A stretch of DNA of 40,397 nt from a virus. The stretch is from positions 1 through 40,397 of the IMG/VR virus record IMGVR_UViG_3300038421_000080. One strand, 5' to 3'. Shown here in pieces: positions 3,124-38,780 of this stretch. Positions within the stretch are counted from its first letter, which is position 1; each line of letters starts with the position of its first letter. The notes under the pieces are model-generated. The model was not told where the DNA came from, searched no databases, and was given only the letters and a program-made list of their open reading frames with translations. Made by a program: the position numbers and the translations under genes.

Positions 3124-3126
3124 GGC

Positions 3127-3378: not shown

Positions 3379-3381
3379 GGA

Positions 3382-3426
3382 CTACCTCCCCTTGCCCTTC
3401 CGCTTGCCCTTGCACGGCATCAGCAT
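3382..3426 (-). CDS. Possible 14-residue lysine-rich micro-ORF
   Basis: ATG at 3426 shares its A with the portal stop (TGATG). The frame encodes MLMPCKGKRKGKGR and ends at 3382. Its last codons contain the GGGGAGG ribosome site of the next gene, so even a non-functional peptide could couple portal translation to the downstream membrane protein. The very basic content with one cysteine is striking for such a short frame, but nothing independent shows that it is expressed. Confidence 0.3.
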   Translation of the reverse strand: MLMPCKGKRKGKGR

Positions 3427-5138: not shown

Positions 5139-5146
5139 GTGCCCTC

Positions 5147-6559: not shown

Positions 6560-6566
6560 GGCGGCC

Positions 6567-7070
6567 TCATCTCTTCACCCCGTTCACGATGAAGGTGACC
6601 GCAGTGGGCGCGTTGCTCTCCAGCTCCACCTTGTCGGTGAACAGCTTGTAGTGCTTGCCCAGCAGCTCCAGCGCCTTCTCCTTGCTCCAGCGCTTCAGCT
6701 TCAGCACCTTGGCCGTCATCGGCAGACCGATTTCATCCGTCCCGATGTAGTGCGTCTCGTGCTCCAGCGAGGCGATGACCCGCCGCGCGGCTGGCGGCAT
6801 CTTCGAGAGCGGCTTCAGCTCTCCCGTCTCCTCGTAGAAGTCGAGCAGGTCTGTGCGCGCCATCGCAGTCAGCTCACGCAGCACTTCCTCGGCGCGCATG
6901 ATGGCCGAGTCGTTGCGGGACTGCTCCACTGCGTCGAGCGCGGCGCGCACCTCGTCCTTCTTCATCCAGCGCCGAGCCACGGCTGCAGAAACCCCGACCC
7001 GAGCCGCCGCCGCCGGCACGTCCAGGTCCACTCGGTACTCGTTCACGAACAAGCGCTGCTTCGGCGTCAT
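6567..7070 (-). CDS. terS: Terminase small subunit
   Basis: This encodes 167 residues beginning MTPKQRLFVNEYRVDLD, the typical opening of Terminase_2-type small subunits. An HTH-like segment follows (VPAAAARVGVSAAVARRWMKK, about 18-39), then a helical oligomerisation region. The C-terminal part (about 110-167) contains LKLKRWSKEKALELLGKHYKLF, also usual for the family. TerS recognises the packaging site and regulates TerL, whose gene begins seven bases downstream. The repeat-rich noncoding stretch at 7215-7468 lies just upstream and is a candidate binding site. The ribosome site before ATG 7070 is weak. Confidence 0.9.
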   Translation of the reverse strand: MTPKQRLFVNEYRVDLDVPAAAARVGVSAAVARRWMKKDEVRAALDAVEQSRNDSAIMRAEEVLRELTAMARTDLLDFYEETGELKPLSKMPPAARRVIASLEHETHYIGTDEIGLPMTAKVLKLKRWSKEKALELLGKHYKLFTDKVELESNAPTAVTFIVNGVKR

Positions 7071-7267
7071 CGCGTCCCAGAGAATAGGCGATGTGCAGCG
7101 CGGAGAGAACCTGGTCGCGGAGTACCTGGTCCACTTCCTCCTCCCCGCGCCAGAACCAGCGCCAGGTGCGCTGAAGCCTGCACAGGACCGATGTCAGGGC
7201 AGGGCTTGGCCCAGCTGTCCATACCTGTCCACACCTGTTTGGGGGTATGGACACCTGTTTCTCCAAT

Positions 7268-7291
7268 GATTTCATGTCTGAGGCACACCTG
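7268..7291. repeat. Left arm of a 24-bp inverted repeat
   Basis: This arm begins GATTTCATG and ends GAGGCACACCTG. Its reverse complement lies at 7407-7430 with 22 of 24 bases matching; the two mismatches are an adjacent TC/CT swap. The arms are 115 bases apart and enclose the AT-richer segment. Confidence 0.85.
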
Positions 7292-7308
7292 GCACACCTG
7301 GCACACCT
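7283..7308 (+). repeat. Tandem 9-bp repeats GCACACCTG
   Basis: GCACACCTG occurs at 7283-7291 and 7292-7300, followed by a near copy GCACACCTC at 7301-7309. The first unit is the distal end of the inverted-repeat arm, so the tandem repeats extend inward from it. The regular 9-base period would place successive units on shifting faces of the helix. Confidence 0.85.
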
Positions 7309-7406
7309 CCCGCCAACACTTGGGCCATCCAGAAATTACGCACTGATAGTGAAGGCATCTTCTTCTCTTCCTAGCGCATACGGAAAAAGGTATGGACAGG
7401 TATAGA

Positions 7407-7430
7407 CAGGTGTGCCTCAAGCATGAAATC
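7407..7430. repeat. Right arm of the 24-bp inverted repeat
   Basis: This is the inverted partner of 7268-7291 and ends one base before the primase stop codon (7433-7431). Immediately on its low-coordinate side are inverted copies of the TCCATACCTG-type decamer (7389-7411). Confidence 0.85.
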
Positions 7431-9626: not shown

Positions 9627-9670
9627 CCTCGCTCCTTCTGGGTGTCCGGCCCTGTTGGAACAAAGCGGTG

Positions 9671-9711
9671 GAAAAGAAAGCCCCCGGTGCCTCACGGCCC
9701 CGGGGGCTTTC
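9671..9711 (-). terminator. Intrinsic terminator inside the replication operon
   Basis: A perfect 12-bp stem (9676-9687 with 9700-9711, GAAAGCCCCCGG/CCGGGGGCTTTC) with a 12-base loop is followed on the minus strand by TTTT (9675-9672). It begins just after the TAA of the 58-residue gene and precedes the primase-helicase by about 45 bases. No clear sigma70 promoter is visible in that gap, so some read-through or antitermination is implied. Confidence 0.9.
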
Positions 9712-9891: not shown

Positions 9892-10031
9892 GGCAGCCTC
9901 CAGCGCAGCGAGTCGCAGGCCGTCGCCCCGCGGGACAGCAGCCGCTGCAGCCGCCCCGTGGCCCACATCCAGAGCAGCAGCACGTCCGAGGCAATCCAGA
10001 GAAACAACACCACCAGTGCAATCGTCAGCAT
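9888..10031 (-). CDS. 47-residue single-pass membrane protein
   Basis: ATG at 10031 lies inside the end of the SNF2 gene (7-base overlap), and the stop overlaps the next start as GTGA. Residues 2-23 (LTIALVVLFLWIASDVLLLWMW) form one long hydrophobic helix, followed by a basic cytoplasmic-type tail (GRLQRLLSRG). The tight coupling on both sides supports a real gene even though it is short. A membrane micro-protein in a replication operon may tether replication to the membrane or act on the host; neither is shown by the sequence. Confidence 0.6.
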   Translation of the reverse strand: MLTIALVVLFLWIASDVLLLWMWATGRLQRLLSRGATACDSLRWRLP

Positions 10032-11437
10032 GTCCGGCCCCTTTCGAGTTCCAGCTCCACCATCAACCTCGACTCCACTCTCTCCTTCTGTCGCAGCACT
10101 TCGAGCACAGCTCTGTCCATCTCTCCCGCGAGCAGCACGCTTGCCATCACGTAGGGCGCCTTCTGCCCCAGCCTGGCGAGCCGGCCGTTCGACTGGTTCC
10201 ACAGCTCTAGTGACCAGGGCAGGGTGTACCACAGGATTTCGTTCCCCCCGCTCTGCAGGTTGAGCCCGTGTCCCACGGACGCGGGATGCGCCAGCAGCAG
10301 CTCCACCTTCCCCTTGCACCAGTCCTGCAGGGCTGTCGAGTCGTCGCCCACGCGGGCGAAGGGGAAGCGCTTCTGCATCCTGTCCAGCTCGTGACGGAAC
10401 CAGTAGAAGCCGAGCAGCGGACGCCCCTGCTGCTCGGCCACCACCGTCTCCATCGCCTCCAGCTTCGCGTCGTGGACCTCTTCCCACTCCCCGTCGATGC
10501 CGCAGTAGACCGCCCCGCTCGCGAGCTGGCGCACCTTCATCGCCAGGGCCGAAGCCGAGCACGCCTGCAGCTCCAGCGTGTTCAGCACCGCCTTCGCCTT
10601 CGTGGCGAGGTCGTGCTCCAGCTGGAGAGCTGCCGCCGGCAGGGGCACGTCCAGCTCGTTCACATGGACCGGCGGGATGCGCTGCGCGGCGAACTCACGG
10701 CTGAGCGAGATGGCGTAGGGACGGATGCGCTCGTGCAGGGCTTCCTCCGTGCCGTGCTTCGGCACCCAGACTCGCTGCTCGTAGTCGGTTGCCATGAAGT
10801 ACTGGTTCCTGAAATCCACGAAGCGCGGTCCCAGCGCATTCTCGCCGGTCACCATGAACATCTCGCCCCACAGGTCCAGCAGGTGGTTGCCGACCGGCGT
10901 GCCCGTGAGCCCGAAACGATAGGGGACCCCCTGGACCGCGCGGCGCAGGCGCTTGAATCGCGTGGTTCCGGGGTGCTTCATCCTCGACAGCTCGTCGAAG
11001 ACGATGGCCTGGTAGCGTTCCCCGAGCACGATGTCCTGGTCGAGCAGCCAGGGCAGTAGCTCGTAGCTGATGACATCCACGTCCGCCGGGTGGAAAAGCC
11101 GGATGAGCCGCTGCTCGGGGGTGCCGGCGATGGACTGCACGCGCAGGCCTTGCAGGTGCTCCCACTTCTCGACTTCATGCCCCCACACGTCCATCTTCAC
11201 CACCATCGCCGGGGCCACCACCAGGACGTGGAACTTCTGCACCTGGCGCTTCAGCTCGACCAGGGCGGTCTCGGTGATGACGGTCTTCCCGAGCCCCATC
11301 GGCAGGAAGAGCGCGAGCTGGCCCTCCCTGACCATGCGGTCAATCGCCTGGAGCTGGTACTCCTTCAGCTCAGCGGCTGTTCGCACGACGGAACTCTCGG
11401 ATGTGCGCGGGGAGGGCGTCAGCGTCGTCGAGGACAT
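10025..11437 (-). CDS. SNF2-type DEAD/H helicase-translocase
   Basis: This encodes 470 residues, a compact phage SNF2 protein. It has a Q-like LKEYQLQAI near 24-32, Walker A MGLGKT at 47-52, DELS at 148-151 in place of DEAH, and LTGTP at 177-181. The C-terminal RecA-like lobe carries HPASVGHGLNLQ and QSNGRLARLGQ (motifs V and VI, about 375-440). Such proteins accompany VRR-NUC, DUF2815 and PolA in many phage replication modules and probably remodel DNA-protein complexes or forks. The start ATG 11437 has AGGAG seven to eight bases upstream and overlaps the VRR-NUC gene by 68 bases. A later GTG at 11386 is possible but has no better ribosome site. Confidence 0.93.
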   Translation of the reverse strand: MSSTTLTPSPRTSESSVVRTAAELKEYQLQAIDRMVREGQLALFLPMGLGKTVITETALVELKRQVQKFHVLVVAPAMVVKMDVWGHEVEKWEHLQGLRVQSIAGTPEQRLIRLFHPADVDVISYELLPWLLDQDIVLGERYQAIVFDELSRMKHPGTTRFKRLRRAVQGVPYRFGLTGTPVGNHLLDLWGEMFMVTGENALGPRFVDFRNQYFMATDYEQRVWVPKHGTEEALHERIRPYAISLSREFAAQRIPPVHVNELDVPLPAAALQLEHDLATKAKAVLNTLELQACSASALAMKVRQLASGAVYCGIDGEWEEVHDAKLEAMETVVAEQQGRPLLGFYWFRHELDRMQKRFPFARVGDDSTALQDWCKGKVELLLAHPASVGHGLNLQSGGNEILWYTLPWSLELWNQSNGRLARLGQKAPYVMASVLLAGEMDRAVLEVLRQKERVESRLMVELELERGRTC

Positions 11438-11651
11438 GCACCGTATCTCCTGCCTGGCGAAGACCTTCGATGCGCACCACCTGGTTCGGCCGCAGCCTTC
11501 CTCCAGGCGCCTTCCACTCCACCCAGAAGTGCAGCCCGTTTCCCAGCAGCATCAGGTGGTCGGGCCAGCCGTCGTACCCGACCTTCACGGGCACGACGGC
11601 TTCCCGGAGCGCGAGCAGCCTTCCGCGGGTCTGGATGCTCGCCTCGCGCAT
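11370..11651 (-). CDS. VRR-NUC domain nuclease
   Basis: This encodes 93 residues, the short stand-alone VRR-NUC form. Catalytic candidates of the PD-(D/E)XK fold are Asp31 (GWPDHLML), Glu45 and Lys47 (FWVEWKAP), and Gln57 (LRPNQ). VRR-NUC proteins are structure-selective nucleases thought to cut branched intermediates. The start abuts the upstream stop without a gap, and the 3' end overlaps the SNF2 helicase by 68 bases, so production of the two is probably linked. Confidence 0.92.
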   Translation of the reverse strand: MREASIQTRGRLLALREAVVPVKVGYDGWPDHLMLLGNGLHFWVEWKAPGGRLRPNQVVRIEGLRQAGDTVHVLDDADALPAHIREFRRANSR

Positions 11652-11909
11652 CTACTTCCTCTTCCCGGCGAGGGCGCGGAGCGCCACGCCCTCGACCTCC
11701 ATCGCGGTCGCCTCCTTCAGCCGCGCCACGATGCGCTGGAACATCGAGAGCCGGGGCTGGGGCTTGTAGGCCAGCTCGGCCACCAGGGCCTTCTTCAGCT
11801 CCGCGGAGTTCATCTTGCGGAGCGTGCTCCCCAGGTTCGGACCGAACTCCAGGGTGTACTTCGTGCGCTCGCTGTCCGACAGCTTCACTCCCACCAGGGT
11901 GATGCTCAT
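11652..11909 (-). CDS. Small hypothetical protein between polymerase and VRR-NUC
   Basis: This encodes 85 residues starting MSITLVGVKLSDSERTKYTLEFG. ATG 11909 overlaps the polymerase stop as ATGA and is preferred over the longer frame from 11936. The N-terminal third is beta-like; the rest is basic and helical (LKKALVAELAYKPQPRLSMFQRIVARLKEA) and ends in GKRK. The composition and position suggest a DNA-binding or polymerase-associated accessory. The family is not recognised. Confidence 0.7.
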   Translation of the reverse strand: MSITLVGVKLSDSERTKYTLEFGPNLGSTLRKMNSAELKKALVAELAYKPQPRLSMFQRIVARLKEATAMEVEGVALRALAGKRK

Positions 11910-13828
11910 TTTCTGTACCTCTCGGTGATGAAGCACTCCGCTTCGATGGGCAGACCACCTGCCCAGGACGGGGCCTCGGTCATCAGTCTCGCGAACTCGT
12001 CGAGCCTGTCTTTCCCTTCAGCTACTACCTCATCGTGGACTGTCGCGACAAGCGGAAACCCAGCCTTGTCGAGACGCAGCATCGCAGCAGCCAGGAGGTC
12101 CCGGCTCACCGCCTGGGTCACGTTCTCTGCCAGCTTCCCGCCGTAGGTCTTGACCTCTCCCCAGGCGCCCCCGCGGTACAGGTCGCGCCCGAAGTAGTGC
12201 AGGGTCCCGTCTGCGGACACGCGCGGGTTGGCGTAGAACATCCGCCGGCCGCTCGGCAGCTCGATGAAAGTGTAGAGCACCCCGCCCACCTGCCCGACCC
12301 CCATGAAGAGCTGCGGGGTCTCGTTGTCGGCCATCACCTGGATGCGCTTCGAGCGGTTGGTGGTGGCGAAACGGAAGGCGCGTTCGAGCCGGCCCCAGAA
12401 GCCGACGATGAAGGGGTTCGCGCGGCGGTAGGTCGTCACCACACGCCGGGCGAAGGGCTCGTCGATGGCGATGTCGTACACCTCGTCGAGCATCCCGCGG
12501 AACTTCCGCGCCCCGAGCCCGTAGCCGGCGCCCAGCACCACCTGCTTCCCCATGAACCGCTCGGCCTTGTCCTGCTTGGTGATGTCCCGTCCGTAGATGC
12601 GGCTCGCCATCGTGCAGTAGGGGTCGCCGTGCGCGCGGAAGAGCTGCACCAGGTCGCGCTCCCGCGCCAGCCACGCCAGGGCCCGGGCCTCGATTTGGGC
12701 GAGGTCTCCCACCAGGAAGGGCCCGCGGAGGAAGCCCCGCAGCATCTCAGCCACCGTGCCCACCGCGTCGAGCGGGCGCTCCGGGTGGGGCCGCTCCATC
12801 CCGGTGAAGACCTCGCCCAGCACCCCCGCGTCGAGGGCCTGGAAGGCGGTCTCGGTCAGGGGCCCCAGCCCCCGGGGGAAGTTCTGGAGCTGGACGCCCC
12901 AGCTGGACCACCGGCCGGTGCGCTCGGCCCCGCAGTAGACCAGGGCGCCCCGCAGGCGGCCATCGCCGCTGGTACGCCGCGCCAGCGCTTGCAGCTTGGC
13001 CGTGCTGGAGCGCGCCAGGGTCTGGTAGATGCGCAGGGCCTCCTGCTTCTCTGGCGGCGTTCCTGGGGCCCGCAGCGCGTTCCGCACGGTGGGCTTACGA
13101 ACATCAGTCAATCCAAGGGCTTGCGCGACCCTGGCGTAGCTCTTCACCGGGTGCCCGGTAAGCTCGCGGAATCGCTGGGCAAGGTGAACGCTGGCGTCGT
13201 GGATGACGCGCTGCGCCTTGGGGATGGCCTCCAGGTCCACCCGGATGCCCCTCCGGTTCATGGACTCGGTGAGTCGATGAACCTCGGCCTCCATCGGGTC
13301 GAGCGGCAGCAGCCGCTCGAAGAGGAGGCGCAGCACCACCACGTCCTGCCGGCAGTACTTGTACAGCCGCACGAACGCCTCGGGCTTCGTCTCCGGGGTC
13401 CACCACTTCGCCGGGTTGTCGCGCGAGGGCCGGCGCGGCTTCGCGAGCTGCTGCATCACGCGGGCGCCCTCGACATCCTTCGGCTGGCCGAAGAAGTCCC
13501 CCAGCGACTCCAGGTCGCGCGGCAGGCCCATCCGCGCGGCCAGCGCCGCCGTGTCGAGCCAGGACGCGCTCCCGAAGAAGGGGTTCACCTTCGCCGCCAG
13601 CACCTCGCGCTCGAAGTCGGCATTGTGGGCGACGAAGGTGAGCCCCGGGGTCTGCGGCAGCGCCGCCGCGTCATTCACCCCCGGGACCCAGACTCCGATA
13701 CCGTTCTGGTTCAGGGCCCAGGCGGCGCACAGCAGCTCCGTGGACGGATGCTCGGCGTAGACGTAGGGCCCCACCTTCTTCACGTCCAGCTCGGAGCGGG
13801 TCTCCAGGTCCACGAAGAGGTAGTTCAC
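11906..13828 (-). CDS. polA: Family A DNA polymerase with 3'-5' exonuclease
   Basis: This encodes 640 residues. The DEDDy exonuclease spans about 1-175: FVDLET (Asp7, Glu9), AHNADFE (Asp71) and YCRQD (Tyr158, Asp162). The polymerase domain spans about 290-640: motif A GDLAQIEAR (Asp375), an O-helix region with Lys428 and Tyr436 (GKQVVLGAGYG), and motif C ATVHDEV (His598, Asp599, Glu600). There is no 5' nuclease domain, as is usual for phage PolA. It is the replicative polymerase. GTG at 13828 overlaps the preceding stop as GTGA and gives the canonical N-terminus; the longer frame from 14038 adds only out-of-frame shadow sequence of the upstream gene. Confidence 0.95.
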   Translation of the reverse strand: MNYLFVDLETRSELDVKKVGPYVYAEHPSTELLCAAWALNQNGIGVWVPGVNDAAALPQTPGLTFVAHNADFEREVLAAKVNPFFGSASWLDTAALAARMGLPRDLESLGDFFGQPKDVEGARVMQQLAKPRRPSRDNPAKWWTPETKPEAFVRLYKYCRQDVVVLRLLFERLLPLDPMEAEVHRLTESMNRRGIRVDLEAIPKAQRVIHDASVHLAQRFRELTGHPVKSYARVAQALGLTDVRKPTVRNALRAPGTPPEKQEALRIYQTLARSSTAKLQALARRTSGDGRLRGALVYCGAERTGRWSSWGVQLQNFPRGLGPLTETAFQALDAGVLGEVFTGMERPHPERPLDAVGTVAEMLRGFLRGPFLVGDLAQIEARALAWLARERDLVQLFRAHGDPYCTMASRIYGRDITKQDKAERFMGKQVVLGAGYGLGARKFRGMLDEVYDIAIDEPFARRVVTTYRRANPFIVGFWGRLERAFRFATTNRSKRIQVMADNETPQLFMGVGQVGGVLYTFIELPSGRRMFYANPRVSADGTLHYFGRDLYRGGAWGEVKTYGGKLAENVTQAVSRDLLAAAMLRLDKAGFPLVATVHDEVVAEGKDRLDEFARLMTEAPSWAGGLPIEAECFITERYRK

Positions 13829-14277
13829 GGATGCACCGGGGAGAGGGTGATTTCGCCATCTTCCAGGCGCAGCATCGTCATGTCCTTTGCCACCTGGATG
13901 ATGGTCTTGCCCTGGCACTGCGGGCGCTTCGCCAGCTGCTGCAGCACGCAGCGGCACTGCTCCGGGGAAAGCGGGGCTGGCCGCGGATTGATGAGCAGTC
14001 CCCCGGCGTTCACGCGCTGAAGCATCATCGCATTCCACCAGAAAGAGATTGCCATGTTATCTTCGTCCTGCTCGTTTCGCTGGCTCTCTTTTTCAGCGGT
14101 AATGCGATGCGCATGATACACGTCGTCGGCTTCGATGAACTCGTACAACACGAAAAACTGCGTCTCGGCATCACGGATGATGTCTTCGAATTCGAAGGGG
14201 CCCGCATCGAGGATGTAGGTTGTCCCGGGGTCGCCCTGCCCGGGCGGCGGATAGGCAGTCAGTCGGAGGATTCGCAT
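13825..14277 (-). CDS. Hypothetical protein before the polymerase
   Basis: This encodes 150 residues from ATG at 14277; the stop overlaps the polymerase start. The first 60 residues are acidic and aromatic (DAGPFEFEDIIRD, FVLYEFIEADD). The second half is helical with two close cysteines (QCRCVLQQLAKRPQCQ). The DNA at about 14040-14200 is noticeably less GC-rich than its surroundings, which hints at a different origin. No motif is recognised. The nearest Shine-Dalgarno lies beyond a hairpin (14287-14314), so translation may depend on RNA folding. Confidence 0.65.
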   Translation of the reverse strand: MRILRLTAYPPPGQGDPGTTYILDAGPFEFEDIIRDAETQFFVLYEFIEADDVYHAHRITAEKESQRNEQDEDNMAISFWWNAMMLQRVNAGGLLINPRPAPLSPEQCRCVLQQLAKRPQCQGKTIIQVAKDMTMLRLEDGEITLSPVHP

Positions 14278-14320
14278 GGTAGACGAAGCGGGGCCCCGCG
14301 CAGGCAGCCCCGCTCCTCCT
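14278..14320 (-). promoter_or_regulatory. Hairpin-bridged ribosome binding site
   Basis: In transcript order the stretch reads AGGAGG (14320-14315), a perfect 8-bp stem AGCGGGGC/GCCCCGCT (14314-14307 with 14294-14287) around a 12-base loop, then nine bases and ATG 14277. Unfolded, the Shine-Dalgarno is 37 bases from the start, too far to work. With the hairpin folded the spacing becomes nine bases. There is no T-tract, so it is not an intrinsic terminator. No other ribosome site stands next to this ATG. Confidence 0.6.
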
Positions 14321-14324
14321 GTTC

Positions 14325-14915
14325 CTAGCCCACCACGTCGTCCAGGTTGTCGTCGCTCTTCTCGCCGGTCTCCGCGAAGTCGGAGAACTCCTTGTCCGCG
14401 GCCAGCCGCCCGTCGATGCGCGGGCCCTTCTTCACCACCTGCAGGTTGTTCAGCCCGCAGCCCACCCCCTTGTTCCCCGCCTTGTCGTAGGGGAAGAAGG
14501 TGACGGAGGCGCGGAAGGAGCAGCCCGAGTACGCTTCCGCCTCGTCGAGGATGGGCTGCAGCTTCGCGTCCACGAGCCCCGGCTGCCGAGTGCTGCTGGC
14601 GTTGAGGAACATCTTGCCGGCGTACACCTCGTCGTCCGGGCGGTCCACGTCCCCGTCGCGGAGGGGGCTCTTCAGCTTGCCCTGCTTCAGCATCTCCAGG
14701 GCCTTCGGGCCGAACTTGTCCACCGCGGCGGCGGCCACCAGGTCCTCCATCGCCTTGTAGCGCTGCGCCTCCAGCTTGTCGTCGAACTTCTTCGGGAAGA
14801 GCAGCGAGATGCTGTACTTCGGGTCTCCCGTGCTGCCGTCCGGCGGCGGCCGAGCCTCGAACACGTGGACGTAGCTGCCGAGCGCGACGGGAGTGATGGT
14901 CTTCTTGCTTGCCAT
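14325..14915 (-). CDS. DUF2815-type single-stranded DNA-binding protein
   Basis: This encodes 196 residues beginning MASKKTITPVALGSYVHVFEA. It matches the layout of DUF2815 phage ssDNA-binding proteins: a first strand region with an early aromatic-containing GSYVHVFEARPP, KYSISLLFPKK near 34-44, an LKSPLRDGD segment, YAGKMFLNASS, YSGCSFRASVTFFPYDKAGNKGVGCGLNNLQVV near 135-170, and an acidic tail ending DDNLDDVVG. It coats ssDNA at the fork. The acidic C-terminus is typical of SSB proteins and usually contacts partners. ATG 14915 with CGGAG upstream is preferred over the GTG at 14957, which lacks a ribosome site. Confidence 0.9.
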   Translation of the reverse strand: MASKKTITPVALGSYVHVFEARPPPDGSTGDPKYSISLLFPKKFDDKLEAQRYKAMEDLVAAAAVDKFGPKALEMLKQGKLKSPLRDGDVDRPDDEVYAGKMFLNASSTRQPGLVDAKLQPILDEAEAYSGCSFRASVTFFPYDKAGNKGVGCGLNNLQVVKKGPRIDGRLAADKEFSDFAETGEKSDDNLDDVVG

Positions 14916-14979
14916 TTGACGGTTTCTCCGGTTTACGGGTTTGCGCTGCTGCTGCACTTACGACACTACCAAGCCTCCT

Positions 14980-16089
14980 TCACTCTAGCAAGGTGAACTC
15001 CGGGGGAAGCGCGGGTCGCTTGTCCGACGACCGGACCAGCGTGGGCTCTCCCGGCGGCTTGTGAGCCAGGTTCTGCACCACCTCCTTTCCGACCAGCTTC
15101 TCCGCTTGGGCCGGGGACACCAGCACGCGCGGGGCTATCGCGTTTTCGTCCTTGGTCAGCTTCTTCAGCGCGGTGTAGGCCACCTTCTCGTCCTTCCAGG
15201 CGCGATGCTTGTTCCCGGCGACCACCTTCCAGCCAGGAATCTCCTGCCCCAGCGTCAGCAGTTTCTTCGCGTGCAGCTCCACCGCCTGCAGGAACGCCCG
15301 GATGCCGTCCGCGCGGTCCAGGAGCAGGAGCAGCTGGTCCCGCTGGAGCGTGTGGACCGGGGCGAACTCCTGCTGCGCCACGGCCAGGGCGTGCTTCTGC
15401 AGCTCGGGACACATCGCGGCGGCCGGGCACCAGGCGCACTGGTCGTCCCCCGGAATGAGCGGCGCGTCCGGGTCGAGCGCCAGCTTCGCGCGGATGGAGT
15501 AGTCGGAGGCCTTTGCCGCGAGGTCGCGGGTCGGCATCACGAACTCCTTCGCGCCACCGGCCCGGGGCTGGTGGATGACGAAGCGCACCTGGTCGTAGAT
15601 GCCGCCGAGCTGGTGGTGGAACCCGAGCCCGTACAGCTCCAGCTGCGGGTTACTCTCCACCTCGACGGGCACGTAGCCCAGCTTCAGGTCGAAGACCACC
15701 AGCTCCGTCTTCGTGAGGATGAAGAGGTCCGCGGTCCCCCACAGCGCGTCGCCCGGGATGTCGAGAGCGGGGCCGATGTTCACCTTCTCCTCGGTGTAGA
15801 GGATGCAGCTGGGGTTCTTCGCGCGATACGCCTTCACCCAGGTCACCGCCTCCTCGACCATCTCCACCATCTCCTGGGTCACGGGCACGTCGTTGAACCG
15901 CTCCCCGAGCCAGAAGCGCGGTCTCTTCCCGAGGCGCAGTGAGCGCTCGAAGAGCGTGTGCCCCGCGGTCCCGTTGTCGGCAGCCGTGCTGCTCGCCTCC
16001 ACTACCTCGGAGGCGAGCTGCACGCTGCCCGGGCACGCGAGCCAGCGCTTCGCTTGGGAGGGCGACAGCTTCGCGTGCTCGCCCATCAC
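14980..16089 (-). CDS. DUF2800 PD-(D/E)XK nuclease, Cas4/AddB-like
   Basis: This encodes 369 residues. The N-terminal LSPSQAKRWLACPGSVQL and the core GTADLFI...LVVFDLKLG (Asp121, Asp134, Lys136), followed by a QLELYGLG helix, define the RecB/Cas4-type nuclease fold. Cys19 together with Cys218, Cys221 and Cys227 (QCAWCPAAAMC) could hold an iron-sulfur cluster, as in Cas4 and AddB. DUF2800 genes typically sit beside DUF2815 and PolA genes, as here. It is probably a recombination or end-processing exonuclease. The start is GTG 16089 (GTGA overlap with the upstream stop) or the adjacent ATG 16086. Confidence 0.9.
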   Translation of the reverse strand: MMGEHAKLSPSQAKRWLACPGSVQLASEVVEASSTAADNGTAGHTLFERSLRLGKRPRFWLGERFNDVPVTQEMVEMVEEAVTWVKAYRAKNPSCILYTEEKVNIGPALDIPGDALWGTADLFILTKTELVVFDLKLGYVPVEVESNPQLELYGLGFHHQLGGIYDQVRFVIHQPRAGGAKEFVMPTRDLAAKASDYSIRAKLALDPDAPLIPGDDQCAWCPAAAMCPELQKHALAVAQQEFAPVHTLQRDQLLLLLDRADGIRAFLQAVELHAKKLLTLGQEIPGWKVVAGNKHRAWKDEKVAYTALKKLTKDENAIAPRVLVSPAQAEKLVGKEVVQNLAHKPPGEPTLVRSSDKRPALPPEFTLLE

Positions 16090-16517
16090 TGCGCTCCCAG
16101 CTTCAGCTGCACGTACAGCTCGGAGACCTTCTCCGGGGGCACGCTGCTCAGCGCCACGGGGGTGTTGTCGGGGAGGTACTTCTGCAGCATCTCGACGAGC
16201 GCGGCCTTCGAGGTCTTCGCGGCGTAGGCCACCGCCATCGCCTTCAGCTCTTCCGGCGTCACCTTCAGCGGCTCGGCCGGCGGTGGCGGGGTTTCCGACT
16301 TCTTCTCCTTCTTCGGCGGGTGCTCCAGCTTCGGCGCCTGGGGCGCTGGGCCAGCGACCACGCGCTCGGCGGCGGTGGCGATGACGGACAGCTTCGCGTC
16401 GATGGACTGCAGCAGCGTCACGAAGCCCTTCAGCAGCTCGGCGTGGACGTTGACGGCTTCGGCCTCGATGCGCTTCACGGTCTTCCTGCTCACGTTGCGG
16501 ATTCCGGGTTTCGGCAT
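16086..16517 (-). CDS. Hypothetical two-domain helical early protein
   Basis: This encodes 143 residues from ATG 16517 with a strong AGGAGAGAGG site. An N-terminal helical segment with basic residues (about 1-50) is joined by a flexible Pro/Lys/Glu linker (about 56-84) to a C-terminal helical domain (about 85-143). The linker suggests tethering of two binding functions. No catalytic motif is present and the family is not recognised. It directly precedes the DUF2800 nuclease with a 4-base overlap. Confidence 0.7.
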   Translation of the reverse strand: MPKPGIRNVSRKTVKRIEAEAVNVHAELLKGFVTLLQSIDAKLSVIATAAERVVAGPAPQAPKLEHPPKKEKKSETPPPPAEPLKVTPEELKAMAVAYAAKTSKAALVEMLQKYLPDNTPVALSSVPPEKVSELYVQLKLGAQ

Positions 16518-16799: not shown

Positions 16800-17243
16800 T
16801 CACATCCTCCCTGCGCAGACCGGGCCGATGCCGGCTGCGATGGACTCCGGGGTGGTCAGGTCGCGCCCGCAGCGGCAGCAGGTGCCCAGGTGCCAGAACT
16901 CCACCTGGTCGAGGCTCGACACGGCCGGGGACTGCAGCTGCTTCAGCAGCCAGGCGATGACCGCCCCGGCCTCCGCGCCCCACCCGGTCTTGTTCAGCTT
17001 GAAGCCCCAGGTGCCGGCGCGCTCGTAGAGGAAGCCCAGGTACTTGTAGTCGGAGGTGTTGTCGGGGCCGACGAGCATCTTCACGAAGAAGCCCTTGCGC
17101 TCGTCGAGGTTCCGCGGCGGGGCCTCGGTCACCTGGAAGGTCTTGCGTGCGCCGGTCTTCTTCGAGACCAGTGTGAAGGTTGCGTAGCCGCCGAAGAGGA
17201 ACTGCTTCATCGCCGCGGACGTGGTGAGCTGAGCGGAGGTCAT
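16800..17243 (-). CDS. Early protein with C-terminal DUF6011 zinc-binding motif
   Basis: This encodes 147 residues. The last 27 carry CCRCGRDLTTPESIAAGIGP followed by Cys143, the hallmark of the DUF6011 domain found in many phage and actinobacterial proteins, presumed to bind zinc. The N-terminal about 110 residues look like a mixed alpha/beta domain (FGGYATFTLVSKKTGARKTF, FFVKMLVGPDNTSDYKYLGF), which in known DUF6011 proteins is an uncharacterised companion region. Its function is unknown. It sits second in the leftward early transcript. Confidence 0.8.
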   Translation of the reverse strand: MTSAQLTTSAAMKQFLFGGYATFTLVSKKTGARKTFQVTEAPPRNLDERKGFFVKMLVGPDNTSDYKYLGFLYERAGTWGFKLNKTGWGAEAGAVIAWLLKQLQSPAVSSLDQVEFWHLGTCCRCGRDLTTPESIAAGIGPVCAGRM

Positions 17244-17245
17244 GG

Positions 17246-17746
17246 CTAGCGCCCCTTCTTCAGCTGCCGGATGGCTTCGGCGGGCCCGCCGATGTAGCCT
17301 GCGCTCTTCCCGCCCCGCCGATGGTACTCGTCGTTTGCCGCGGAAATGAAGTTCCAGCTGCGCAGGTCCACGTGCGACGGAACCTCGCTCGCCATCCGAA
17401 CGATGATGGGGTCCTTCGTCAGGGATGCCGCCTCGTCGTACCAGGTGCCCGCGGGCGGCAGGTCATTGGGGACCAGCACCTCGACGACGCCCCACCGCGG
17501 TGCGCAGACCATGCAGTGGTCGATGAAGGGATTCCGGTGCGCCTCGCCGTTGCAGGGCTTCTCGACGATGTGGAAGTGCGCGCGCAGGATGGACTGGACG
17601 CGGCGGGCCAGCGCTCCGCGCTCCTTGCAGAGAGGAGCGTTCTTCCCGTGGAGGAGGATGTGGCCGCTCGGGAAACGGCAGGCGCTGCGGGGGGAGACCT
17701 TGCACTTCGGGCAGGGGACATCGCGGTGCTTCACGGTGACGGTCAC
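17246..17746 (-). CDS. First leftward early gene, cysteine/histidine-rich protein
   Basis: This encodes 166 residues from GTG 17746, preceded by AAAGGAA. The N-terminus holds CPKC (Cys12, Cys15), Cys23, His29, His33 and Cys40, and a second cluster Cys65, His70, His77, Cys78 and Cys81, so two metal sites are likely. The C-terminal half (VPNDLPPAGTWYDEAASLTKDPIIVRM) is not recognised. As the promoter-proximal gene it should be made at once after infection, a position where phages often place proteins that act on the host. No specific function can be read from the sequence. Confidence 0.75.
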   Translation of the reverse strand: MTVTVKHRDVPCPKCKVSPRSACRFPSGHILLHGKNAPLCKERGALARRVQSILRAHFHIVEKPCNGEAHRNPFIDHCMVCAPRWGVVEVLVPNDLPPAGTWYDEAASLTKDPIIVRMASEVPSHVDLRSWNFISAANDEYHRRGGKSAGYIGGPAEAIRQLKKGR

Positions 17747-17788
17747 GGTTCGGTTCCTTTCCGGTCAGGGTGGGTGCTTCGGCCTTGC

Positions 17789-17817
17789 ATTATAGGGACT
17801 TGACCACAATGCGTCAA
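17789..17817 (-). promoter_or_regulatory. Leftward early sigma70 promoter
   Basis: On the minus strand TTGACG (17817-17812), a 17-base spacer and a perfect TATAAT (17794-17789) form a strong sigma70 promoter. Transcription should start near 17782 and reach GTG 17746 after about 36 bases. Its -35 box lies within the spacer of the opposing promoter. Confidence 0.9.
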
Positions 17818-17828
17818 CCCCGTAAAAT
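17800..17828 (+). promoter_or_regulatory. Rightward sigma70 promoter for the helicase
   Basis: TTGACC (17800-17805), a 17-base spacer and TAAAAT (17823-17828) precede the helicase ATG at 17865. Transcription should start near 17835. It overlaps the leftward promoter, so two polymerases cannot occupy both at once. Its -10 is one base weaker than that of the leftward promoter. Confidence 0.88.
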
Positions 17829-17864
17829 GCCTGCCCGAAGCACCTACCCTAACGGAGACCATAC

Positions 17865-19202
17865 ATGACCACTCTGACAGCAGACCAGGAACAGGCGAAA
17901 GCGAAGTTCCAGGAGTTCCTGAAGAACGACGAGGCCACTGCCTTCCTCCTGGAGGGCGGGGCCGGCGTGGGGAAGACCTTCCTCGTCGGGCAGCTGCTCC
18001 TGGACTTCGACGGCTCCCTGTGCGTCTGCACTCCCACGCACAAGGCGACCAATGTCATCAGGAGGAAGCTGGACGCCTTCGGCATCGACTGGACCCGCGG
18101 GTATGACCCGTATTCCTACCACGGGGAGTGCGTCACCGGGACCACCGCGCAGCTGCTCGGCATCGGGCCCGTGGTGACGGAAGACCAGGACTCGAAGAAG
18201 GTGAAGTTCGGACGGGCGAACAAGGGCATCCTCTCGAAGTTCACCCCGCGGCTGCTGGTCATCGACGAGGTGTCGATGCTCGGATGGAACGACTTCCGTG
18301 AGCTGATGAAGCACGGGAAGGCCAGCGGCATGAAGATTCTAGCGGTCGGAGACGCCGGCCAGCTCCCGCCCGTCCAGGCCGAGCGCATCCCCTTCGAGAA
18401 GTTCGTCCACAAGGCGACGCTGCGCCAGGTGGTCCGGCAGGCCGAAGGCTCGGCCATCATCCAGGTCGGCTGGGCCATCCGGGAAGACCAGTCCTGGAGA
18501 GACATCCACGGCCCCGGCGTGCGCGTCGAGTCCCGGCTGCAGGATGCCTTCCTGGAGGCAGTGCAGGCGCCTGGCGAGCGCCCCGAGGAAGAGCGCGAGG
18601 TTTTCATCGCTTACCGCAACGTCGTCGTGAACACCGTGCAGGAAGCCGCTTGCCAGAAACTCTACGGGCACGGACGGAAGGAGTTCGCCCCGGGCGAGCT
18701 GGTGCTCTCCGAGACCAACCTCTACCGGGCGAAGACCCTGCTGTGCGCCAACCAGGACGAGCTGGTGGTGGTCGAGTTCCACGAAGACGAGCGCGACGAG
18801 CAGATGGGCGTGCCCGTCACCCTGCGCCACCGTCGTAGCTCGACCAGCATCACGGGCTCCTTCCGCGCGCACTACCTCTCGCCGGAAGAGCTGGCCGACC
18901 CCAAGCACCCGTACAACGTCGAGCTGAAGCGCCTGGAGGCGGAAGCGCAGGAGCTGCAGGCCCAGGTGAAGGCTGGCGCGAAGCATCTCGATTCCCAGCG
19001 TCGGCAGGCGTGGGTGAACTTCTTCAGCTGGCGCGACACCACGGTCATCAGCTTCCGCCACCCCTTCGCCATCACCAGCCACAAGTCGCAGGGCTCAACC
19101 TATCGCGCGGTCTTCGTCGCGGCGAACGACTTCGCGAAGTTCGGGAAGCACGGGCTCTATGTGGCCGTCACCCGGCCGAAGGAAGAGCTGGTCTACTGCT
19201 AA
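17865..19202 (+). CDS. SF1 helicase, Dda/RecD-like
   Basis: This encodes 445 residues and is the only plus-strand gene. Motif I is GGAGVGKT (about 31-38), motif II VIDEVSML (about 133-140), motif III GDAGQLPPV (about 162-170), with QVVRQAEGSAI resembling motif IV. Motif V is AITSHKSQGSTY (about 406-417) and motif VI LYVAVTRPKEEL. The UvrD_C_2-type C-terminus matches T4 Dda and the RecD family, which move 5' to 3' on ssDNA. A coiled region (about 345-385) interrupts the C-terminal half. It probably helps replication start or recombination. Its stop overlaps the stop of the convergent late gene by two bases. Confidence 0.95.
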   Translation: MTTLTADQEQAKAKFQEFLKNDEATAFLLEGGAGVGKTFLVGQLLLDFDGSLCVCTPTHKATNVIRRKLDAFGIDWTRGYDPYSYHGECVTGTTAQLLGIGPVVTEDQDSKKVKFGRANKGILSKFTPRLLVIDEVSMLGWNDFRELMKHGKASGMKILAVGDAGQLPPVQAERIPFEKFVHKATLRQVVRQAEGSAIIQVGWAIREDQSWRDIHGPGVRVESRLQDAFLEAVQAPGERPEEEREVFIAYRNVVVNTVQEAACQKLYGHGRKEFAPGELVLSETNLYRAKTLLCANQDELVVVEFHEDERDEQMGVPVTLRHRRSSTSITGSFRAHYLSPEELADPKHPYNVELKRLEAEAQELQAQVKAGAKHLDSQRRQAWVNFFSWRDTTVISFRHPFAITSHKSQGSTYRAVFVAANDFAKFGKHGLYVAVTRPKEELVYC

Positions 19203-19423
19203 ACCACCACGGTGTTCGAGGGCGGGGAGGAGACTCCCCGCCCGTCTTCTGTGTGTGCCACGTAGGCCCGGGCCACGTAGAGGCGGAAGCCGATGCCGCC
19301 CAGGAACTCGGGCACCACCTGGTTGTCCGCCTGCTCGTTCTTCAGCTGGCCCGTCCACCGACCACTCCCGGCCGGCACGCCGGGTGGGTTGGCATAGTCG
19401 GTCATCAGAACGATGTCGGCCAT
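19199..19423 (-). CDS. Last late gene, small tail-appendage-like protein
   Basis: This encodes 74 residues from ATG 19423, four bases after the upstream stop, with only a weak GAG ribosome site. The C-terminal half (FRLYVARAYVAHTEDGRGVSS then PPSNTVVV) resembles the closing strands of a fibronectin type III-like domain, so a small beta-sandwich appendage is likely. No terminator follows. The stop lies inside the 3' end of the opposing helicase gene. Confidence 0.6.
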   Translation of the reverse strand: MADIVLMTDYANPPGVPAGSGRWTGQLKNEQADNQVVPEFLGGIGFRLYVARAYVAHTEDGRGVSSPPSNTVVV

Positions 19424-19427
19424 TTCG

Positions 19428-20417
19428 TTAGCTCATGTTCACGGTAGTGTTGAAAGGGATGATGAGCGAGCCCACGGTGATGTAGGCGATATTGTTCTCG
19501 CTGTCGCGAATCGTGGACCCGGTGACGCAGGGAGAAGTTCCCGTGCTGGTCTGCATCACCGTCGTGCCCAGGTCCGGGACCCGACCTCGCCCGTAGAGGG
19601 AGCTGCTGTAGGAGATGAAAATCCAGGAAGGGAAGGAGGCGTAGGTTCCTCGAATCGGGTCCACGGATGGCGCACCGGGCTGTGCGACGCCCAGGTACTG
19701 AATCGCCGCGGTGTTCACCGGGGACCTTGTGTTATTCGAGGAAGACTGAAGATTGACTGGAGTCGTAACATTGACCCCACCAGAATGCACGCTGAAGGTC
19801 CACACCGGAACCGCATCCGAAGCGTGATGGCCGACTGTTGCCATACACGCCAGCGCGAACTCCGCGAAACCGCCGCCCCCGGAACGCGCGCTGAAGATGA
19901 AGAAGTCTCCCGTGGAAGACAGAATTCCGTGCAGTCGATGCAGTGTGGCAGTGGAGGAATGGCTGAATGCAGAAGCCGTTCCTCCCCACATCCAGCTGTC
20001 CGAGGAGGTGGGGTTGGCGGTGGTGGAGCCCCCGGAGAACGCGGTCTTCGCGAAGATGAAGCTTCCGCTGTAGTCGTTCGACCCATCGAAGGTGATGAGC
20101 AGCTGCACCTTGATGCCGGACGACAGGGTGGGAGACTCCAGCACCATCCAGGAATGCGGGTTCGAGGCGCTGCCCCGGACGATTTTTGCCGGGGTGTACG
20201 TGGTGGTCCAGCGGTCCACCCCGTCGAGCCCGGCAGCCGAGCCGTCCGAGCTGCCCTTCACGGTCCAGTGCCCGTTGGCCCCGGGAGAGCCAGCCCCGCC
20301 GGTCAGGAACTCCTTGATGGCCCACAGCCGCTGGCGCGCCTGGTCGAGCACGTCTGCCGGGGTGTAGACGTTGAAGCTTGAACCGAACTGCCAGCCGGCC
20401 TTTTCGTAGGAAGCCAC
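19428..20417 (-). CDS. Tail appendage protein, probable receptor-binding
   Basis: This encodes 329 residues from GTG 20417, with AGGTGACGA upstream. The N-terminus (1-40) contains a helical YTPADVLDQARQRLWAIKEFL. The remainder is a large beta-rich domain with HWTVKGSSDGSAAGLDGVD, HSWMVLESPTLSSGIKVQLL and many Ser, Thr and Gly residues, like uncharacterised phage tail proteins. Such domains are often at fibre or spike tips. DNA around 19730-19960 is less GC-rich than its surroundings, a common feature of swapped host-range modules. Confidence 0.75.
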   Translation of the reverse strand: MASYEKAGWQFGSSFNVYTPADVLDQARQRLWAIKEFLTGGAGSPGANGHWTVKGSSDGSAAGLDGVDRWTTTYTPAKIVRGSASNPHSWMVLESPTLSSGIKVQLLITFDGSNDYSGSFIFAKTAFSGGSTTANPTSSDSWMWGGTASAFSHSSTATLHRLHGILSSTGDFFIFSARSGGGGFAEFALACMATVGHHASDAVPVWTFSVHSGGVNVTTPVNLQSSSNNTRSPVNTAAIQYLGVAQPGAPSVDPIRGTYASFPSWIFISYSSSLYGRGRVPDLGTTVMQTSTGTSPCVTGSTIRDSENNIAYITVGSLIIPFNTTVNMS

Positions 20418-20420
20418 TCG

Positions 20421-20849
20421 TCACCTCGTCAGCACGTAGGGGATGGACCAGGAGCCGTCGCCCAGCGACTCCGTGACACCGATGAGAACTCCCTCTCGGT
20501 ACAGCTTCACAGTCTGTCGGGGAGGAGCGGTTCCTCGGAAGGTCTCGACCTCACCCACCGTGGACTCGGTGAGCGGGTAGTCGATGGTGGGGGCAGCCGG
20601 CGCGTCCATCACCCGGCGCTGGTAGCCCAGCAGGTGCGCCAGAATCTTGTGCCCCGAGGGCACCGCATCGACCAGGTGGATGCCGCTCCCGTCCACGGTG
20701 TAGTCCGCCACGGGTGCGAGCAGCACCCCATCCACCGCCACCAGCCAGCAGTCCGCCGGGTAGAGCGCGGCAAAGGCTGCCGGCTCGGCCAGCAGCGAAG
20801 TGCTGCCCGTGGTCGTCCAGCCCCAGCTGAGAATCGGGTGGAAGGGCAC
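20421..20849 (-). CDS. Tail appendage protein with module shared with the upstream fibre gene
   Basis: This encodes 142 residues from GTG 20849 with AGGAG upstream. Residues 10-75 carry WLVAVDGVLLAPVADYTVDG ... LLGYQ, which parallels the C-terminal module of the preceding gene (YIVTVNGVVLSPTTDFVV ... CFGYQ). The C-terminal half (from about 85) has an Ig-like look (STVGEVETFRGTAPPRQTVKL, WSIPYVLTR). It is likely a fibre segment or adaptor. Confidence 0.75.
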   Translation of the reverse strand: MPFHPILSWGWTTTGSTSLLAEPAAFAALYPADCWLVAVDGVLLAPVADYTVDGSGIHLVDAVPSGHKILAHLLGYQRRVMDAPAAPTIDYPLTESTVGEVETFRGTAPPRQTVKLYREGVLIGVTESLGDGSWSIPYVLTR

Positions 20850-20858
20850 GGAGCGCTC

Positions 20859-21434
20859 CTACTGCTGGTAGCCGAAGCAGCGCACCACCACCTTCGCGGA
20901 GACCGCGGGCGGGGTCGTGAACGTGATGGTCCAGGGGTCACCCGGCGCCACCACGAAGTCGGTCGTCGGGGACAGCACCACCCCGTTCACCGTGACGATG
21001 TAGAAGTCATTGTTCTGCAGCGTGGCTCCGTCGATGTCGAAGGTGTCGGTGCTCCCGTCCCCGAGCACATCCCACCGCTGGGGCACGAAGGAGACCTTCT
21101 CGTCGAGCTGCTGTGCGAGCATCGTCAGCTTGTCCAGGGCGCGCTCGTGGACCTCGGCGCTGAAGGCCCCGCCGGCCTGGTAGTCCACCTCCTGGGTTGC
21201 CGGCACGTCGCGCACCACCTCGACCGCAGCTCCGTTTGCCGGGGCGGTGGTGAAGGTGAAGGTCCCGCCAGGAGAGCTGTCCTGGTCAGCGTTCAGGGCG
21301 ACCGTGCCCCCGGCCTCCGCGCCATTCACCAGGCCCTTCACCCAGCTCTGGTCGTAGCACTTGAAGGTGAAGGTGTAGATGGTGGTCGAGCCATTCCCGG
21401 TGAACGTGTTCCTGACCGTGGTCGAGGTGAGCAT
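20859..21434 (-). CDS. Tail fibre, T7-type N-terminal attachment domain
   Basis: This encodes 191 residues with ATG 21434 immediately after the stop of the giant gene and AAGGAG nine bases upstream. Residues 1-120 follow the T7-like fibre N-terminal pattern: NTFTGNGSTTIYTFTFKCYD, TFTFTTAPANGAAVEVVRDVP, QEVDYQAGGAFSAEVHERALD and KLTMLAQQLDEKV. That domain docks the fibre to the tail. The last 70 residues form a module ending CFGYQQ. The fibre is short, so the distal parts are probably supplied by the next genes. Confidence 0.88.
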   Translation of the reverse strand: MLTSTTVRNTFTGNGSTTIYTFTFKCYDQSWVKGLVNGAEAGGTVALNADQDSSPGGTFTFTTAPANGAAVEVVRDVPATQEVDYQAGGAFSAEVHERALDKLTMLAQQLDEKVSFVPQRWDVLGDGSTDTFDIDGATLQNNDFYIVTVNGVVLSPTTDFVVAPGDPWTITFTTPPAVSAKVVVRCFGYQQ

Positions 21435-24400
21435 TTACTTGAACTCCTTCGGGCTACGGAAGAGGAGGTCCTGCACCGGCTCGTCCATCTTTCCAGAAGT
21501 GAAGTCTTCGAGGAACCGTGAAGCGTTCCACGCCGCCAGCGTTGGGGTGTGGGTGAGCGTTCCCAGCGCCTCGACGAACAGGGCCTTCTTCTCCGAGTCG
21601 GACATCCGGTCCCCGGAGACCTCCTTGCCCGCCAGCGCCGCCCCGCGGAGCACGGCGGTCAGCCACGGTGCTGTGCGGGCCTCCCTCTCGTTCAGGAAGG
21701 CTTCGGCCAGGGCGCCTGCGAGGGGCACTGTGCGGCTGACGTAGATGAGCTGTTCCACCGCCAGCCAGTGCAGCCAGTCTCCTTCATCGCGCTTCCGGTC
21801 CGGCTCCTTCCCGCGCATGAGCCCTTCGAGCATGACCGGCAGGAGCACGGCCCACCACCAGCGGGCGGCGTAGTCCCCGACCTTCGCGAGCGTGGTGGTC
21901 TTGCTCGACTTCTCGGCCAGCTGATTGAAGAGCACGGAGAAGTAGGTGTACATGACCACGAAGATTCGAGCGCCCTCGGAGACCCGCTGGACGGCGGCGG
22001 TGTTCAGGATGCCGCCCCCGGTCTGGGAGAGCCGGACCGTCGAGTTCGCGAAAGCCACCGGGTCCGCGTGCCCCTCGTCGAGCGCCTTCTGCCGGGCAGC
22101 GTACCAGGTGATGGCATTCACGGCTTTCTGCACCAGCATCATTCCGCCGAGAGCGAAATGCGCGAGCTGCGACTTCAGATGTCCGTATTCCGAGAAGACC
22201 GAAGTCATCCGCTCGAAGTACTGCGTGATGTCCCGGTCCACCTGGCGGTCGATGTTCTTCAGCTCGCTCGACAGCTCGTTCACCTCCTGGAAGGGATTCC
22301 CTTTCGCGAATTGGGCCATGAACTCCCCGATGCCCTTCGCGGTGTTGACGAGCCCGACCTCTTTCGCGGTGACGGTGAGCCCGAGGGTCTGCATCAGGGC
22401 GGTGGTCACCTTCCCGCCGAGCAGCACGATGGATGAGCCGAAGCGCAGGTGCCGCAGCACGCTCTCGATGAAGGTGGTGTTCTGGTGGATGTTGCCATCC
22501 GCCGCGATGGCCTGCAGCCAGGGGCGGAACATCTTCCAGACCTCGTGCCCGAGGGCCCCCTCGATGGCGGCCTTCATCCGCTTGTCGTTGGTGAGCCGGT
22601 CCACAGCCCGCACCGCCTCGTAGTGCGTGAGGTAGTGGATGACCTCGTTCAGGTGCGCCGGCACCACGTCGAGCGACAGCAGCAGCGGGCTCATGTCGTT
22701 GCCGCGCGCCTTGGTGAATCCTGACTCGACGACGGGCCGCAGGAAGTGGTTCTCGAACACCTCGCCGGTCTTCCGCTCCGCGGTCTGCAGCCCAAGCGTG
22801 CTGGCCTTCGGGTCCTTCACGATGGGGTAGTAGCCGCCGGTCAGCTCCAGCTCCCCCAGCTTGAAGGGGGTGGCCTCCACCTGCTCGGGCGCCACGCCGA
22901 TGACCCGCTCCGACAGCGCCTTGATTTGCGGCCAGAGCGACCCGACCGTCTTCCAGATGTGGTTCAGCAGGGCCACGTCCTTCGCGTTCAGCAGCTCGGA
23001 CAGCCGCTGCTTCACGGCTTCCTCGCTCCAGCCGTACCCGGTGAGCAGGCGGACCATGTTCCCGTCGTTGCCCATGTTGAGGGCGACGGCCAGGACATCC
23101 CGCAGGAGGAGGCTGTGCCCCAGGAAGTCCACCCGGGTGTCGTAGCGCAGCCGGTCCTGCAGGCTCATCTCGTCGAAGGGCCGGCGCAGCTCCATGAGCA
23201 CCTGCTCCGAGAGCTGGGCCTTGTCCGCCTGGGCCAGCACCAGCGGCTGGAAGAGCAGGCTGTGGATGAACCCCGCGGTCTTCCCGCCATCCAGCTCCCG
23301 GCAGACGAACTCCACCTTCTTCAGCTGCACGTAGCCCTTGTCCAGCCACTCCTTCTTCTTCGCCCACCAGGTTGGCGTGCCCGGCTTGTGCGAGTAGTTC
23401 ACGCCTTGCGTGGACTCGATGTGCGCTGTTGCTTGATTCACGGTATCGTTGAAGGACCGAAGCTCTCGCCCCAGCCGAATCTTGTTCTTCAGCTGGGCCA
23501 GGTGCGCCAGGTTCTCGACGGCCGCCTTCACGGCAGACAGCTCATCCACGGACAGCTCCCGCCAGTTCTTCAGCGTGAGGTCCGGGGGAATGGCGACGGG
23601 CTCCCCCGCGTCCTGCAAGTTCTGCAGGTACGAGAGATACGACGCCCGTCGCTCCATCGACTTCAGCCCGCGAGTGCGGAAGTCGAGCCCTTCGATGATG
23701 GCGTCGATGGCGCCCAGGTAGTCCTGGCCCGCCATCCCGATGCGCTTGCGCACCGAGAGGTCCTGGAAGGAAGACAGGTACTCCCGGGTCTTCGCCGCGT
23801 TCTCCGCTTCCCGGGATACCAGCTTCCACATCTCGCGGGCCCAGAGCTGCCGGCGCTTCTGGGAGTAGGCCTCCTGGAAGTCCTTCGCGGCGTAGGCCTC
23901 CTGGGCGAGCCGGGCGGCCTGCTCCTCGGCGCGGAGGAACCGGCCGGGCTGCAGCTCCAGGACGGTCATCTTCGCCACAGCTTCCCGGGCCGCGAGCTGG
24001 ATGGCTGCCCGCGCGGACTTCGGGTTCTCCGCAGTCACCTGCTTTCCCAGCGCCTCCAGCTCCGTCTGCAGCGCGAGCCCCACCTCGTTCGAGTGCAGCT
24101 CCTTCAGCGCGGTCTCTTCGAGCCAGGCCGGCGTGGCGCCGTACCCGGGGTACTTCTCGACCATCCGCTGCTCGAACTTCGCCTGGATGGCCTGCCGCCG
24201 GGCCGGTGCGGCCGACAGGGCGTCCAGCAGCTGATGGCCGGTGATGAAGCCGAAGTAGGGGGCCAGCACGTCCGGGTGGATGCCCTTCTCCTCCGAGAGA
24301 ACGCGCAGCTTGCGGAGGTTGTAGTCCGCCATCCCGGGGATGCCGAGCGTGCCCTTCATGTTCTTCACCGTCTCCCAATCCAGCTTCTTTCCGGTGAAGT

Positions 24401-32329: not shown

Positions 32330-32330
32330 C

Positions 32331-34415: not shown

Positions 34416-34416
34416 G

Positions 34417-34992: not shown

Positions 34993-34995
34993 GGG

Positions 34996-35277: not shown

Positions 35278-35294
35278 GTTTTCCTCCATTCGTG

Positions 35295-35332: not shown

Positions 35333-35347
35333 CCTGTCACGTGCTGG

Positions 35348-37673: not shown

Positions 37674-37684
37674 GCGGTTCTCCT

Positions 37685-38533: not shown

Positions 38534-38534
38534 G

Positions 38535-38777: not shown

Positions 38778-38780
38778 CGA

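Follow-up and report, generated by a model that had tools for sequence, protein, structure and literature searches.

Gene organization around the divergent site

The window analyzed here, that is, the whole 40,397-base record of a virus known only from a metagenome (66% G+C), carries a podovirus-type gene set with a terminase, a portal-like head-tail adaptor, T7-type tail tubular proteins and a major head protein. Its replication genes encode a family A polymerase, a primase-helicase, a ssDNA-binding protein and an exonuclease. The terminal 183 bases are repeated at both ends, the copies differing at four C/T positions, and a frame of 671 aa spans the end-to-start junction; the map is therefore circular. 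Nearly all genes run leftward, and a divergent start at 17746/17865 splits the circular map into a Dda-like helicase on the rightward side and the replication and late genes on the leftward side.

The first rightward gene (17865..19202, + strand) encodes the Dda/RecD-like helicase of 445 aa (phrog_325, E=2.5e-67; AAA_30, UvrD_C_2) and is directly followed by a terminator-like hairpin with a weak T tract (19220..19243, + strand). On the other side, the first leftward gene (17246..17746, - strand) encodes a candidate regulator of 166 aa with a zinc-finger-like N terminus (CPKC...C) and a C-terminal phrog_2223 match. This protein matches PF24623 (Phage_zn_bind_8), described as a "putative DNA-binding phage zinc finger domain," below threshold (E=0.0046; 17.1 bits, under the Pfam cut-off of 24), and none of the proteins searched was recognisable as a repressor. 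The second leftward gene (16800..17243, - strand) belongs to phrog_20259/DUF6011, and the leftward replication operon (10025..16517, - strand) comprises an unknown gene, a PD-(D/E)XK exonuclease, a ssDNA-binding protein, a family A DNA polymerase and a SNF2-like helicase. Elsewhere in the window, a 2894-aa protein (21435-30119) is almost without family match (LPD22 under cut-off) and shows 46% identity over 1249 aa with the close relative G001 described below.

Interlocked promoters and mirrored leaders

Between the two divergent genes lie two sigma70-type promoters. The leftward one combines a -35 box TTGACG (17812..17817, - strand) with a -10 box TATAAT (17789..17794, - strand) over a 17-bp spacer and scored 11/12 in the promoter scan; the rightward one, likewise with a 17-bp spacer, combines TTGACC (17800..17805, + strand) with TAAAAT (17823..17828, + strand) and scored 10/12. 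Each -35 box sits within the spacer of the opposite promoter, on a common axis at 17808.5, so that the locus holds two overlapping opposite-strand -35/-10 pairs within the 16-18 bp spacing range of divergent sigma70 promoters. Each predicted promoter leads to a gene with a ribosome-binding site: a Shine-Dalgarno-like GGAAAGGA (17755..17762, - strand) was read 8 nt upstream of the GTG at 17746 (-), and a GGAG (17854..17857, + strand) 7 nt upstream of the ATG at 17865 (+). This pair gave the sole matches in a sigma70-like scan of the whole 40 kb. Because shuffled sequence yields about one chance match per 20 kb, the count of two promoters alone is not significant; what is significant is the quality, position and symmetry of the pair.

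Judged by position, transcription would start 7 nt beyond each -10 box, at 17782 leftward and at 17835 rightward, with 53 bp between the two predicted +1 sites. RNA polymerase covers roughly -50 to +20 of a promoter, and the two footprints would therefore overlap by about 48 bp and be mutually exclusive. This geometry suggests that one RNA polymerase at a time would bind each DNA molecule. Such mutual exclusion does not equal the alternate firing that the initial annotation had proposed.

The symmetry extends beyond the promoter boxes. An imperfect dyad about 17808.5 covers 17765..17852 (repeat search arms 17764-17804 and 17813-17853, 78%), with 33/49 half-positions in palindromic match. This was the top value of the window, with a runner-up of 28, and compares with a palindrome maximum averaging 27.6 (sd 1.1, highest 31) in 150 Markov-1 simulated windows. 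Across the axis, the -35 boxes are complementary at 5/5 and the -10 boxes at 5/6 positions, as is expected of any two sigma70 promoters so arranged. The stretches between the functional parts stay at chance level (5/15: inner core 0/4, spacer 2/5, discriminator 3/6). The leaders, in contrast, match at 16/18 positions (Fisher p = 0.0014 against the other non-box positions), and it is this match that needs an extra explanation. A palindromic operator over both -35 boxes was rejected on the 0/4 core, and symmetry inside the boxes (TTGACAA-N4-TTGTCAA), found in two of the contigs described below, is absent here.

The mirrored leader elements are CCGAAGCACCCACCCTGA on the leftward side (17765..17782, - strand) and CCGAAGCACCTACCCTAA on the rightward side (17835..17852, + strand), each spanning predicted +1..+18. 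The two predicted transcripts thus share 16 of their 18 leading bases (P about 2e-8); as the leader was delimited post hoc, starting at the predicted +1 and stopping where the rightward Shine-Dalgarno region begins, these P values are somewhat favourable. The 10-mer CCGAAGCACC begins precisely at the predicted +1 in both directions, and the arms end, on either side, just ahead of the Shine-Dalgarno. The leaders are C/A-rich and short, with almost no folding (-1 to -3 kcal/mol); they had no Rfam match, and neither boxA/boxB nor put-like stems were seen in them. No third exact copy of CCGAAGCACC occurs within the window. As for a third leader copy, only the pieces GAAGCACC (17725-17732) and CCTGCCCGAAG (17705-17715) were found and judged weak. 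Both leader/discriminator pieces lie within the start of the first leftward gene (window 17700-17735), and CCTGCCCGAAG is an 11-bp exact inverted match to 17830-17840.

Overall, the observation made in the initial annotation is correct and statistically sound. The overlapping promoters that it had described (TTGACG-17-TATAAT and TTGACC-17-TAAAAT) are present, the -35 boxes, -10 boxes and arms do share the axis at 17808.5, and profile matches support the helicase and the replication operon that it had named, the former rightward and the latter leftward. Its arms turn out to be longer than the 10 bp proposed. The overlap geometry supports its claim that polymerase would be unable to occupy both promoters together, and the predicted starts support that of a near-identical leader on both mRNAs.

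Relatives of the phage and other viral contigs

Helicase and terminase profile searches recovered a single close relative, G001 (L009, 40,037 bp), with 61% helicase identity. Other terminase-profile relatives had no helicase match, several of them being fragments; no relatives were found in bacterial genomes, and an exonuclease query retrieved no further ones. Manatee Spring phage MW202489 was discarded as an uninformative comparison, its helicase being co-directional with its neighbours. G001 has the same early left operon, with the helicase divergent from it over about 143 bp, and a leftward promoter read by eye as TTGACG-17-TATCTA. The dyad was not found at the matching locus. The initial annotation had held that its reading would fail if related phages conserved the genes without the dyad, and this is partly the case, as G001 keeps the divergent pair and the leftward promoter while the dyad is absent. 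The only word common to the two G001 leaders is the 8-mer CGCAACAC in similar placement (p about 0.05), which may be a hint at most. G001 is also without the first leftward gene of the window: its own first leftward gene is the homologue of the second one (phrog_20259/DUF6011). At the same place after the helicase, it carries a stronger terminator-like hairpin.

The two genomes also differ in the orientation of a large block. Both keep the order primase-terminase-portal-capsid-tail-giant protein, but with respect to the leftward early operon the block is flipped between them (window 1-9695 and 21435-40397; G001 [L082/L083] 20338-40000 and 65-6955). In the window the late genes come after the replication operon, and in G001 they go with the helicase direction.

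Of the distant relatives (about 40%), five retain a divergent pair. Two of them, L005 and L006, carry the ribosome-binding-site leader word AGCTAGAC on both sides, and this word also stands ahead of other early genes in G002 and G003, whose genomes were largely read. The distant relatives have a conserved GCTAGA leader, which is absent upstream of the window helicase. A leader word, GGAGCTAGACA, lies directly before the start codons of several early genes on both strands in G002/G003 (contig coordinates 7547, 15492, 17640 and 17729 in L084 of G003; 8410, 39768 and neighbours in L086/L087 of G002). The repeated leader word of these genomes resembles the start-associated sequences of Cluster K mycobacteriophages (PMC3203893).

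Scanning viral contigs for the exact geometry gave 7 other loci, most of them between divergent genes, against an estimated chance expectation of <1 locus in ~5e10 bases (collection size likewise estimated). L098, which is unrelated to the window phage, shows the whole design with different letters: its leaders GAACACAACGAAAG and GGACACAACGAAAG match at 14/18 positions with a run of 12, and its first leftward gene is of the excisionase/HTH_17 DNA-binding type. The site itself (L098 7629-7718) has interlocked promoters, mirrored 12-bp leader words and a -35 core TTGACAATCGTTTGTCAA. L094 shares the geometry; its leaders match less well (9/18), and its HTH_17 gene lies on the rightward side. It is in L094 and L098 that the symmetry runs inside the -35 boxes.

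A control geometry, with the -35 boxes 6 bp apart, gave 33 matches in viral contigs, nearly all without mirrored leaders. Many of these loci resemble T4-like cyanophage sequence upstream of gp55 and have co-directional flanking genes; a symmetric double promoter alone is therefore no proof of a divergent switch. L117 (1394-1435) and L145-L147 (cyanophages P-SSM4, Syn19 and P-SSM3) carry a symmetric TTGAC-N6-GTCAA upstream of gp55, the late sigma factor gene, with outward -10-like boxes; this site may serve as an operator or as a promoter for antisense transcription. The exact dyad GGTGCTTCGG-N40-60-CCGAAGCACC had one match in viral contigs, in the unrelated L092, which is about the estimated chance expectation. 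There, the exact GGTGCTTCGG/CCGAAGCACC arms (1399-1466; 12 bp with neighbours) lie just upstream of a small ORF that runs leftward. On the whole, interlocked promoters recur, and mirrored leaders are rare.

Interpretation and comparison with known systems

The reading that we favour, if tentatively, is that one factor may read the +1..+18 element of both units, making the site the place from which a podovirus-type phage of lytic appearance controls its early genes in both directions. Its two promoters, of the host sigma70 type, would face apart with interlocked -35 boxes, a single polymerase being bound at once. Either transcript, from its predicted start, would open with a common element of ~18 nt ahead of the ribosome-binding site, and a single factor recognising this element on both sides would switch both units jointly. 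The element would more probably be an asymmetric DNA operator or roadblock at +1 to +18 than an RNA element. The likeliest factor may be the small zinc-finger-like product of the first leftward gene, acting as an autoregulator. We favour a shared reader because the mirrored identity is confined to the functional parts (-35, -10 and leader), because the leader begins at the predicted +1 in both directions, and because the unrelated L098 repeats the design beside an excisionase/HTH_17 gene; the recurrence of the geometry in 7 other contigs and the sub-threshold zinc-finger match point the same way. Several points speak against it: G001, the nearest relative, has the divergent pair but no dyad, operators without a third clear copy or internal symmetry are unusual, the zinc-finger match of the candidate regulator lies under the Pfam cut-off, no protein searched was recognisable as a repressor, and the leader could just as well function as RNA.

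Recognition at the RNA level is the main rival of the DNA operator. Here, a phage or host factor would bind both early transcripts and act on antitermination, stability or translation. The identity indeed lies in the sense strand of both transcripts, from +1 to just before the Shine-Dalgarno; putL and putR of HK022 are similar RNA elements of both early transcripts (PMC9378689), and GGAGCTAGACA is repeated before early genes in the distant G002 and G003. However, the leaders are short and nearly unfolded, without boxA/boxB, put-like stems or an Rfam match, and, as would fit a DNA site, the element includes +1 itself. We consider recognition as RNA possible but doubtful. The initial annotation had suggested an inverted duplication of promoter and leader. 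As a rival to the regulatory readings, this duplication would be old or recent, and the likeness would have no regulatory role beyond supplying two promoters. The similarity of promoter and leader on one exact axis agrees with it, and the absence of the dyad in G001 is expected for a lineage-specific event. A neutral copy fares less well, since drift should not leave 16/18 matches in the leader but 5/15 between the promoter boxes, and since the same pattern occurs in the unrelated L098. The duplication, if any, would therefore be old, with the leader kept alike, and a simple neutral one is disfavoured and, in our estimate, improbable.

Two further explanations need no specific factor or invoke the DNA structure itself. 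The leaders could have converged on a 5' end favouring promoter escape, mRNA stability or translation in the host, in line with their C/A-rich, nearly unstructured sequence ending just before the ribosome-binding sites. Yet an exact 10-mer identity on one axis, with a word found nowhere else in the phage, exceeds what composition needs, and convergence seems quite improbable. The dyad could also serve as a cruciform or replication origin: the single-strand DNA fold reaches -28.6 kcal/mol versus -12.5 in shuffles (z = -6.9). This energy is automatic given the symmetry, however, the centre is poorly paired and the same locus of G001 has no dyad, which leaves a structural role very improbable.

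If the leader is a shared recognition site, the start of all recognisable transcription of the phage fits within about 90 bp, with strict single-polymerase binding and joint control of the helicase and the replication/late units; the site would then be a simple, testable promoter-competition system. If mere duplication accounts for it, this is a neat yet ordinary divergent promoter. A broader proposal, unlikely but worth stating, is that of a recurrent phage design in which interlocked promoters carry leaders of ~18 nt, alike within a phage and differing between phages, both read by one factor encoded in one arm; CCGAAGCACC in the window and ACACAACGAAAG in L098 would be examples of such phage-specific pairs. 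Both directions would then be equivalent and could tolerate the late-block inversion between the window phage and G001. With the layout recurring in different letters, paired leaders could lead to undiscovered phage regulators.

Lambda nutL and nutR are 5' elements on both divergent early transcripts, bound by one factor. HK022 putL/putR (PMC9378689) likewise place a similar 5' element on both outward-running early transcripts, but put is ~70 nt long with two stem-loops, whereas the window element is 18 nt, unstructured and starts at +1. With folds of -1 to -3 kcal/mol and no Rfam match, the leaders do not group with such structured put/nut RNA elements.

For an operator or roadblock in the DNA, there are precedents for the pieces. 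In the conjugative plasmid pLS20 (PMC4207663), the overlapping divergent promoters Pc and Pr are controlled by the autoregulator Rco through two operators. As there, one spot with overlapping divergent promoters would control two units, with a regulator gene in first place, in the window a putative one. In pLS20, however, the promoters differ in strength, each operator is an array of several motifs and experiments have demonstrated looping, whereas the window promoters are near equal by sequence and the mirrored elements at +1..+18 are themselves the candidate operators. At Kpn2I (PMC6237814), an operator downstream of the start serves as a roadblock. The repressor sites of phages L5 and L1 (PMC1934351) are asymmetric operators, short and tied to early promoters like the candidate in the window; L5 has ~thirty genomic copies, the window only two clear ones of different sequence.

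Warman et al. 2026 (PMC12825309) described E. coli bidirectional promoters, of which weak ones barely compete and strong ones do; the weight of polymerase exclusion at the window site would likewise depend on promoter strength. The E. coli promoters share with the window a pseudo-symmetric sequence and the binding of polymerase in one orientation at once. Their -10 region is shared by both directions and their starts are 10-23 bp apart, while the window has separate -10 boxes, interlocked -35 boxes and predicted starts 53 bp apart, and therefore falls outside this class. Unlike these promoters, it also has mirrored leaders. The layout is already known; the matching predicted transcript starts are its unusual part.
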